64,000 bases of DNA from assembly GCA_025041195.1 (NCBI GenBank), contig JAKCFM010000001.1:2418001-2482000 (forward strand), written 5' to 3'. A model generated the notes under the pieces. It was not told the origin of the DNA. It searched no databases and worked only from the letters and a program-made list of their open reading frames with translations. Of the stretch, positions 48,563 to 51,561 are shown in pieces. How positions within the stretch are numbered: position 1 is the stretch's first letter; every line of letters starts with the position of its first letter. Origin of the DNA: Halobacteriales archaeon YIM A00013. GTDB taxonomy: Archaea; Halobacteriota; Halobacteria; Halobacteriales; Haloarculaceae. The position numbers and the translations under genes were made by a program.

Positions 48563-48767
48563 ACTCGATACATGTCCAAATAAAATATATGGTTTGCTAT
48601 GTTGCTGTATATGAATAATATTAACAATGATATTAAATGTCTGAGTTGTGCAATCGATCGAATGCTCCTCCCGAACCCAATCTACAACCCTCACCCAACC
48701 GTCAACTGACCGATATCAGCCTTCCATGCCACAGACCACACACCCACAGCACCACCCACACTCTGGG

Positions 48768-49199
48768 TCAGTTTGTTCGTGAGAACTCTTCGATCGTCGT
48801 TTTCGTCGAGTTGCCGGTGAGCTCTTTGATATCCGTACCGTCTGCGAGCGCCGTTTCGCGTTTGACGCGGTAGTTGCCGCCATCGGTCGTGTAGCAGTCA
48901 CCCGGATGGAAGAAATACCAGTCCTCTCGGTCGAATCGCACCCCAATTCGGGGCTTTGCGCCGAAGTTCTGGGCGAAAAACACCAGCCCCTCAACCTCCT
49001 CGCCCGTCAGATAGATCGGATCGCCGCTGGATGACTTCGCCTCAATTGCGAAAAACGACGTTCCGTCACCCGCCAGCACGTCGGGAAGCTCCCGGTCGGT
49101 GGCGGACCCACTCGCTGGCGCGCGCATCACCGCGAATCCGTGGTCGTCCAGCCGATTGACGAGCTCTCGCTCCCGGCGCTCTCCCTTTCGATTGGCCAT
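48768..49199 (-). CDS. hjc: Holliday junction resolvase Hjc
   Basis: A 143-residue archaeal junction-resolving endonuclease. The basic N-terminus (K-G-E-R-R-E-R-E-L, residues 4-12, with a conserved Glu), the A-S-G-S[10 protein letters not shown] segment (about residues 29-43) and the F-F-A-I-E-A-K-S catalytic Glu-x-Lys (about 50-57) form the PD-(D/E)XK active site. It cuts four-way junctions during recombination. The ATG at 49199 is chosen because the conserved basic motif begins there; eight residues more are possible from 49223. Confidence 0.93.
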
Positions 49200-49547
49200 A
49201 CCCTCCGCTTCACTCGGCACCACCTAAAGTGCTGGCGGTCGCAACCGCAGGAAGGCACTGGATTCCTTTAGGGCGATTAAAGCATTTAGAATTATTAATA
49301 ATTATGTTTATCACGTTGGACGACAATCACTGAGATACGCCATGATGGAGTACACTGACACCGAGAACGTCGGCGCACCGGCGGTCCCGCTACTGAACGG
49401 CGATGACAGCATCGAAACGATGGGCGAGATCGTCTGGCGGCGATAGACGCGTTCATTCTGACAACAGTTCGTGCATACCCAGGCCACTGCGTTGTCAGTG
49501 GCGACGAATCCGACCAACGCACAGTCCCCTGATTGAGTGGCCCTTTT
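49200..49547. other. intergenic stretch with an ambiguous small coding region
   Basis: This 348-base gap holds no confident gene. On the + strand 49342-49446 encodes a 34-residue acidic peptide (M-M-E-Y-T-D-T-E-N-V-G-A-P...) with good halophile codon use. On the minus strand, 49311-49547 gives an open frame directly behind the broken GIDE-like gene, with a C-T-N-C-C motif but no strong start. Both strands are G/C-rich at codon position three, so composition cannot decide. Either could be a small zinc-finger-like protein or a decayed fragment. An AT-rich spot lies at about 49275-49312. Confidence 0.35.
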
Positions 49548-50330
49548 TCACTGAATGAGCCACGGCCAGGCCATGAAGAACGCTGACCCACAGATCACAG
49601 CGATTCCGAGCACGATCCGTTCGTTCCCCTTTCGTCGCCGTCGCTTGATGAACGCCTCCTTCGTTCGCTCGGAGAGAATGCAATCGCCGGATTATGTTGG
49701 TGAATCAACCAGTACGCGTCGTCCGCCCTGCTCCGTTTGGATTTCACGGCCTGCACCATGTAGATAGACGCTGTCACCTGGCTTAACGACGCGTTCAGAG
49801 AAGCGACGAGAATCGCCGATCCCGATCGGTCCGTACTGCCGCCGGGTCGCTGCTTCGAGGGTCGGCTCAGTTGCAACGTATCGGCTGATCCGTTCTGAAG
49901 GCTCATCGAAACTATCGACCTCCGTTTGGACGGGATCGACGGCGAGTTCTCCACTCTCGGGGAACTCAACACGGACAGAGGACGCTCCCGTGTCGATGAG
50001 AATCGGCTCGCTGTGGAAATCTTCGTGAATGAGCTTCCAGCTCCCTCCCTCCCCATTGCTGACGTATTTTTCCACCTCCACATGGCAGAGTACTGCCTCC
50101 CGCTCCTCGAATGGAGATTCCAGTATTGTCGCGTCCGACGCCGGTCTAACGGTTCCTTCAACGTCAATCGTTCCCGCCTGAAGATCATCACCTGTCGTTC
50201 GCTCGGTGTTTGCAACTCGACTGACGACGCCGCGTTTTGTGTATCCAGTGATGATGAGGAAACCACCACCACTGGCAATGGTCACACCTCCAACAATCCA
50301 CAACAGTGTGGATACTGAGACAGCGCTCAT
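49548..50330 (-). pseudogene. GIDE-domain-like membrane protein interrupted by a stop codon
   Basis: The intact frame (49692-50330, 212 aa) has an N-terminal membrane helix (about residues 8-28), then a beta-rich domain with T-I-D-V-E-G-T-V and A-V-L-C-H-V-E-V-E-K, as in GIDE-like haloarchaeal proteins. It ends at TAA 49692-49694. In the same frame the next 47 codons (49548-49691) still read as coding: S-G-D-C-I-L-S-E-R-T-K-E, a basic R-R-R-R-K segment, then a hydrophobic helix (I-V-L-G-I-A-V-I-C-G-S-A-F-F) and TGA. Members of the family usually have this second C-terminal helix. So a nonsense mutation, a sequencing error, or stop read-through splits the gene. Without the tail it lacks its second membrane anchor. 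Confidence 0.65.
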
Positions 50331-50485
50331 TTCTGGACCCTTGTTCCCTCTGCAGATAATTCACGTTCGTTTTGATAACGGCGTTCGACGTGGGACTGCT
50401 CACTCGACCCCAAAATTCAATCACAAACTGCTTGTTTACTGGCGGGTACGCACTCCCATGGAGCAATTCAGCGGGGGTTGGACCA

Positions 50486-50725
50486 ATGCCTGATCCGTTT
50501 TCGCAGACACCAAACTTCAGAAAGTTCGCGCTGTATCGCCACGACGACAGCTCTGGCGTCTCCGGAACGGGCGTCGTCGCATACGGGGTTCAGTTCCCGC
50601 AACCGAACGGCAAATGTGTCGTCGGCTGGACTACCGACGTTGGCAGTGTCGGCGTCTACGACAACATCGAGGATGTACAGGCGATTCACGGCCACGAAGG
50701 CGGCACTGACGTGATTTGGGAGTAA
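50486..50725 (+). CDS. small conserved protein, 79 aa
   Basis: A 79-residue protein with F-A-L-Y-R-H-D-D-S-S-G-V-S-G-T-G-V-V-A near residue 12 and a following V-V-G-W-T-T-D, ending in A-I-H-G-H-E-G-G-T-D-V-I-W. I recognise this Y-R-H-x-D-x-S-G-V-S-G-T-G pattern from small haloarchaeal and viral proteins, but not a function. The chosen ATG at 50486 fits the conserved start; an in-frame ATG at 50372 adds a poorly conserved head. It lies upstream of the SDR gene in the same direction. Confidence 0.7.
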   Translation: MPDPFSQTPNFRKFALYRHDDSSGVSGTGVVAYGVQFPQPNGKCVVGWTTDVGSVGVYDNIEDVQAIHGHEGGTDVIWE

Positions 50726-50757: not shown

Positions 50758-50784
50758 CCGGTGGCTGAGAACGTCATTCCGACG

Positions 50785-51561
50785 ATGGCAGAGCTACTCT
50801 CCGATGCGGTTGCAGTCGTCACGGGTGGATCGAGTGGTGTTGGCCGAGAAATTGCACTCCAGTTTGCGTCCCACGGTGCTGACGTAGTGATTGCGGACAT
50901 CCAATCCGACCCACGGACCGGGGGGACGCCCACGCACGAGAAGATCAACACGGAAACCGACCAGCAGGCTGATTACGTCGAAAGCGACGTGACCGATAAA
51001 TCATCGCTCGAATCGGCTGTCGATGTCGCAGAAACCTTCGGTCCGCTCTCGGTGATGGTGAACAACGCGGGCATGTTTCGGTCCGAAGACGTGCTCACAC
51101 TCTCCGAATCAGACTACGATCAGCTGATGGATCTCAACGTAAAAGGGGTGTTCTTTGGCTCGCAAGTGGCAGGTGAACGAATGCGTTCAACAGGAACCGA
51201 GGGATGTATCATCAATCTTTCCAGCGTGGCCGGCCTCCAGGGGTCGGGCGAACACGCCAGCTACTGCACCGCAAAGGGTGGTGTCCGGCTGTTCACCTAC
51301 GCGCTTGCTGACGCGCTCGGTAGTGATGGCATCCGGGTCAACGCACTCCATCCGGGCTTTGTCGAAACCGCGATGACAACTGAGGACGTCCCCGTCGTAG
51401 GCACCGACTCGGAACAGCAGTACAACGCGCTCGTTCCACTCGGTCGATTGGCCCAGCCCGAGGATGTCGCCAACTGCGCAGTGTTTCTTGCGAGTGAGCT
51501 CGCTAGTTATGTGACGGGCGAATCGCTCCTGGTTGATGGTGGCCTGATTAACTGCGGATGA
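50785..51561 (+). CDS. short-chain dehydrogenase/reductase
   Basis: A 258-residue SDR enzyme. The cofactor site T-G-G-S-S-G-V-G (residues 12-19), N-N-A-G near 94, the catalytic Ser in L-S-S-V-A-G and Y-C-T-A-K near 162 are all present, with C-terminal D-G-G. It oxidises or reduces an alcohol/carbonyl; it resembles glucose 1-dehydrogenase and 3-oxoacyl-ACP reductase. D-I-Q after the second strand (V-V-I-A-D-I-Q) suggests NAD rather than NADP. The substrate cannot be fixed. Confidence 0.9.
   Translation: MAELLSDAVAVVTGGSSGVGREIALQFASHGADVVIADIQSDPRTGGTPTHEKINTETDQQADYVESDVTDKSSLESAVDVAETFGPLSVMVNNAGMFRSEDVLTLSESDYDQLMDLNVKGVFFGSQVAGERMRSTGTEGCIINLSSVAGLQGSGEHASYCTAKGGVRLFTYALADALGSDGIRVNALHPGFVETAMTTEDVPVVGTDSEQQYNALVPLGRLAQPEDVANCAVFLASELASYVTGESLLVDGGLINCG

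Follow-up and report, generated by a model that had tools for sequence, protein, structure and literature searches.

A haloarchaeal GIDE-family membrane protein gene interrupted by an in-frame TAA codon, probably through a young nonsense lesion

In human MAPL the BAM/GIDE domain sits between two membrane helices, and in the available part of the same study none of the prokaryotic sequences used carries a C-terminal RING (PMC4457424). Closer to the locus described here are the GIDE proteins of Halostagnicola larsenii XH-48 (plasmid NZ_CP007058) and Haloterrigena salina JCM 13891, whose frames run uninterrupted over 257 residues. As to the decoding of stop codons, the available text of a 2021 recoding review gives selenocysteine (UGA) and pyrrolysine (UAG) as the only cases in which archaeal readthrough has been demonstrated, and the term UAA does not occur in that text (PMC8211752).

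The window analysed here is a stretch of 64,000 nucleotides on contig 1 (bases 2418001-2482000) of a genome with haloarchaea as its named relatives. One of its genes belongs to the same domain family as human MAPL/MULAN/MUL1 (BAM/GIDE plus RING) and has the domain in the same position between two membrane helices. Unlike the human protein, however, it has no RING finger: the frame stops directly past the last helix and GIDE was the only Pfam family found, so that no ubiquitin-ligase role can be read from the comparison. The proteins of H. larsenii and H. salina are 44-45% identical to it over residues 1-212 or 6-212, and they share its two-helix layout and have a homologous tail, whereas the frame in the window is interrupted by a stop codon.

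The interrupted frame and its family assignment

Translation of positions 49540-50330 revealed a GIDE-family frame on the minus strand, starting at ATG 50330-50328 and running for 212 residues to TAA 49694-49692. This open part (49692..50330, minus strand) encodes the N-terminal membrane helix together with the larger part of the BAM/GIDE domain, and its closest homologues are 45% identical over residues 6-212. Past the in-frame TAA (49692..49694, minus strand), the same frame continues for 47 codons to TGA 49550-49548. The continuation (49548..49691, minus strand) has the sequence SGDCILSERTKEAFIKRRRRKGNERIVLGIAVICGSAFFMAWPWLIQ and is homologous to the C-terminus of intact relatives. It comprises the last beta strand, the basic segment KRRRRKGNER and a C-terminal membrane helix, in which a 19-residue window reaches a mean hydropathy of 1.90, compared with 2.0 for the N-terminal helix. 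Translation and hydropathy thus bear out the original prediction, in coordinates and in description, that an in-frame stop is followed by 47 codons with a basic segment and a membrane helix before a TGA. The chance of finding 47 open codons is about 28% in random sequences with the dinucleotide content of the window; such a run is common by chance, and homology must therefore decide. Separate translation of the tail was considered and rejected: no in-frame ATG or TTG precedes the helix, whose own sequence contains the first GTG, so that a tail with the whole helix cannot be made alone.

The read-through frame scored 27.2 bits against the Pfam GIDE family (PF12483; cut-off 23.6), covering profile positions 15-156 of 160, and the GIDE-like label given to the gene at the outset is therefore correct. 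Scores of three close intact homologues were 51.2, 50.6 and 52.7 bits; a distant homologue reached 32.7 bits. The 212-residue piece alone matched no Pfam family at E ≤ 1, and a scan of the host's own genome with the GIDE model gave no match. The arrangement of a domain between two membrane helices is seen in the window gene only when the tail is counted, the second helix being absent from the product of the standard code. This carries a warning for annotation, as the 212-residue ORF is not a natural member of the family.

Conservation, divergence and predicted structure of the tail

Relatives of the 212-residue piece are widespread and mostly distant: at family level 87 of 146 genomes have a match, as do 212 of 392 drawn from the order, the host's own genome counted. 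Among the matches listed, none except the gene itself is more than 45% identical. Extending the search to 391 genomes of the class (E ≤ 1e-40) brought no relative closer than 45%, and none that could date the stop or show its fixation; the stop is known from one genome sequence. An alignment search of genome contigs returned five named relatives, the best of them 44% identical. Seven plasmid records hold relatives, all below 60% identity, and three of these seven are annotated as 'GIDE domain-containing protein'. One scan of viral contigs found no relatives.

The best 19 homologues by E-value (L002, L003, L031-L045, L084 and L085) were taken as the close-homologue set, the query being the frame with X at the stop. 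At the stop column all 19 have a sense codon (E in nine, P in three, D in two, G in two, and Q, A and S in one each). Past this column, 18 of the 19 carry the same tail, around the motif DFILSDKS...G...PW. The comparison with intact homologues had been set beforehand as the test of the original prediction that the tail after the stop looked conserved; its outcome was the opposite of a refuting one, since these homologues keep the tail instead of ending at the stop. The distance from the stop column to the C-terminal end is 47 residues in 15 of the 18 intact close homologues and 45 residues in the other three. The window tail aligns gap-free and at equal length to those 15, which end at the position of TGA 49550-49548, and exceeds the remaining three by two residues. 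No second lesion was seen in the 260-codon frame when it was aligned end to end with intact homologues, the tail being fully open and in register.

In a wider set of 54 homologue frames (L002-L053, L084 and L085), none ends at the point where the window frame stops, and 52 have a hydrophobic end helix, defined as a 19-residue window with a mean hydropathy of at least 1.6. The two exceptions are L031, borderline at 1.59, and the frameshifted L003. The start codons of L013, L027 and L028 are approximate in this set, which leaves the measured C-termini unaffected. Judged from these alignments, the tail is part of the gene.

L003, from the halophilic archaeon J07HX64, is also the sole exception among the 19 close homologues. 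Its frame breaks a few residues past the stop column and its helix lies in another frame. With it (G101, about 2094-2245), the subclade has two members with a broken tail, the frameshift of L003 lying near the same place. As the sequence is metagenome-assembled, the break may well be an assembly error.

With its frameshifted tail, L003 was not counted in the comparisons of identity and branch length. Between the window gene and its homologues, mean identity is 38.6% on the N-terminal side of the stop and 26.1% on the C-terminal side; for the other 153 pairs the two values are 53.4% and 48.4%. The tail identity of the window gene lies 0.07 below the regression on pre-stop identity, the lowest of 19. 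On a fixed tree, the branch of the window gene is 1.89 times as long for the tail as for the pre-stop part; the ratio is 1.42 tree-wide and ranges from 0 to 2.4 on the other terminal branches. These values suggest that any relaxation of the tail is mild at most. They neither prove decay nor point to any added constraint of the kind that might be seen in a functional readthrough tail.

The structure of the closest homologue, L031, was modelled from an alignment of 37 sequences (mean pLDDT 87.9). In this model the stop column is residue 212 of 257, and downstream of it lie a strand (217-219) and a 34-residue helix (223-256). The window product should therefore end without the last strand of the domain and without the C-terminal helix, a loss that would probably leave it misfolded, unstable or otherwise inactive. 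When the L031 model was compared by fold with the PDB, no structure passed E ≤ 0.001. The highest-ranking entries, MCM and SSB replication proteins with OB folds, had TM-scores by query of at most 0.23, and no function was therefore read from the comparison.

The genomic slot

The gene occupies a variable slot (49440..50417) whose flanks are 94-95% identical to the sister species G039. The matches to G039 cover 48665-49439 (94%) and 50418-50723 (95%), with about 600 bp of unrelated sequence between them in G039. One flank holds the gene for the Hjc Holliday-junction resolvase (48768-49223; Pfam PF01870), and the other a stretch conserved in the genus (50486-50725) with a small ORF that has no Pfam match. 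The other members of the genus compared (G041-G044) have a shorter spacing at the slot and no relative of the gene. The GIDE-family gene is present in one of the seven genomes of the genus, the other six having no relative at E ≤ 0.001. Its absence from these six genomes and the presence of other DNA in the slot of G039 are as expected for a dispensable gene.

No neighbour gene is common to the window and the homologue loci (11 loci and the window, with L080/L131 and L082/L132 representing the same places twice). Apparent common ORFs in L081, L082, L083, L132 and L134 were rejected, as they run antisense and overlap either the homologue gene itself or its 3' end. A mobile element was likewise considered and rejected: the borders of the slot have no clear repeats, and the repeat search gave three families of short direct repeats (12-14 bases) and no inverted repeats. 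The GIDE-family gene is an accessory gene that stands on its own, either acquired in this genome or lost from others.

Three further observations were made during the comparison within the genus. In G039 the slot of the GIDE gene is taken by a short frame (L074, about 1232-1834) that has hydrophobic stretches as well as CxxC motifs and may be a small membrane gene of a different kind. The short-chain dehydrogenase gene at 50761-51561 of the window is mostly missing in G039, which keeps a remnant of its 3' end and thus appears to have lost the gene. In addition, the matches in G040 and G041, two genomes listed separately in the genus, lie at identical coordinates on contig 1, which has the same length in both (3,915,224), so that one of these assemblies seems to contain the other.

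Explanations for the stop codon

We propose, with a probability of about 0.74, that a single nonsense lesion, the TAA, interrupts an accessory gene that is otherwise intact and patchily distributed; the gene would then be an early single-lesion pseudogene or at best a truncated allele. Compared with the intact homologues, the frame has one nonsense codon ahead of the final strand and helix, and we infer that this codon is disabling. The starting point would have been an accessory gene for a BAM/GIDE membrane protein, with two helices flanking a beta domain and no RING, located between conserved chromosomal genes. A point change in this lineage would then have created the in-frame stop after codon 212. 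The stop may be fairly young, because no other frame lesion is visible. Ribosomes would terminate at the TAA and release the truncated protein described above. Counting against decay are the lack of a second lesion, the tail that is open in register, and the small size of its excess divergence. If the proposal is correct, the locus would be a clean example of early gene loss, with one lesion and the remainder intact, in a patchy haloarchaeal gene within a variable slot. The original prediction had left two outcomes side by side, inactivation of the gene or readthrough of the stop. Its description of a gene split by an in-frame stop ahead of a conserved tail has stood, and the evidence favours inactivation; readthrough has not fared as well, given a UAA codon, no tRNA with the matching anticodon among the 45 genes found (canonical reading), no stable RNA structure downstream and a tail that is not unusually conserved.

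The best surviving alternative, though an unlikely one, is a sequencing or assembly error or a mixed culture at this position, the real gene being intact and the stop absent from the organism. It accords with the stop being the only lesion in a frame that otherwise aligns from end to end, seen in one genome sequence only, in an assembly of three contigs with an estimated completeness of 96.5% and contamination of 3.3%. The frame break of L003, at nearly the same place and itself possibly an assembly error, also fits. However, no repeat runs across the stop site itself, and a single substitution in a non-repetitive stretch is an untypical assembly artefact.

Slightly less probable again is that the 212-residue form is a working product, the lineage having moved to a shortened single-helix version with the tail left over. 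The N-terminal helix is retained in full, as is most of the domain, and relative to the tree the tail diverges slightly more than the rest, which would suit such a history. The homologues speak against it, since nearly all close ones retain the tail and not one of the 54 frames ends at this point, and in the model the final strand of the domain lies past the stop.

Programmed or leaky readthrough of the UAA, yielding a two-helix form of the GIDE membrane protein alongside the one-helix form, is very improbable: although the frame stays open and homologous as far as the normal end of the family, the stop is not kept in the orthologues, the canonical reading gives no UAA-decoding tRNA among the genes found, and conservation is no higher in the tail than in the remainder of the protein. 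No stable RNA structure was found around or after the stop, and the stretch from just before the stop to 49570 is less stable than the mean of its shuffles (z +1.47). We know of no earlier case of natural UAA readthrough in an archaeal chromosome, and one at this locus would, if true, be the first to our knowledge. The gene gives no evidence for a new decoding mechanism.

The tRNA search found 45 genes, 43 of them read directly by ARAGORN, and no tRNA with a UUA anticodon on the canonical reading. The set lacks tRNA-Trp and is therefore incomplete, the missing genes probably being those with long introns. ARAGORN run with introns gave two intron-bearing tRNA genes, one for Glu-CTC and the other (L126; G000:C1:1816812-1816915) labelled 'tRNA-Stop (tta)'. 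L126 was examined as a suppressor tRNA and rejected, as the label places the intron inside the anticodon. The usual site of archaeal tRNA introns is after position 37, and with the intron placed there the loop reads CTTTGGA and the anticodon TTG, that of tRNA-Gln. No other Gln-TTG gene is among the listed tRNA genes. L126 is best read as an intron-containing tRNA-Gln (TTG), and it represents a possible trap for automatic suppressor searches.
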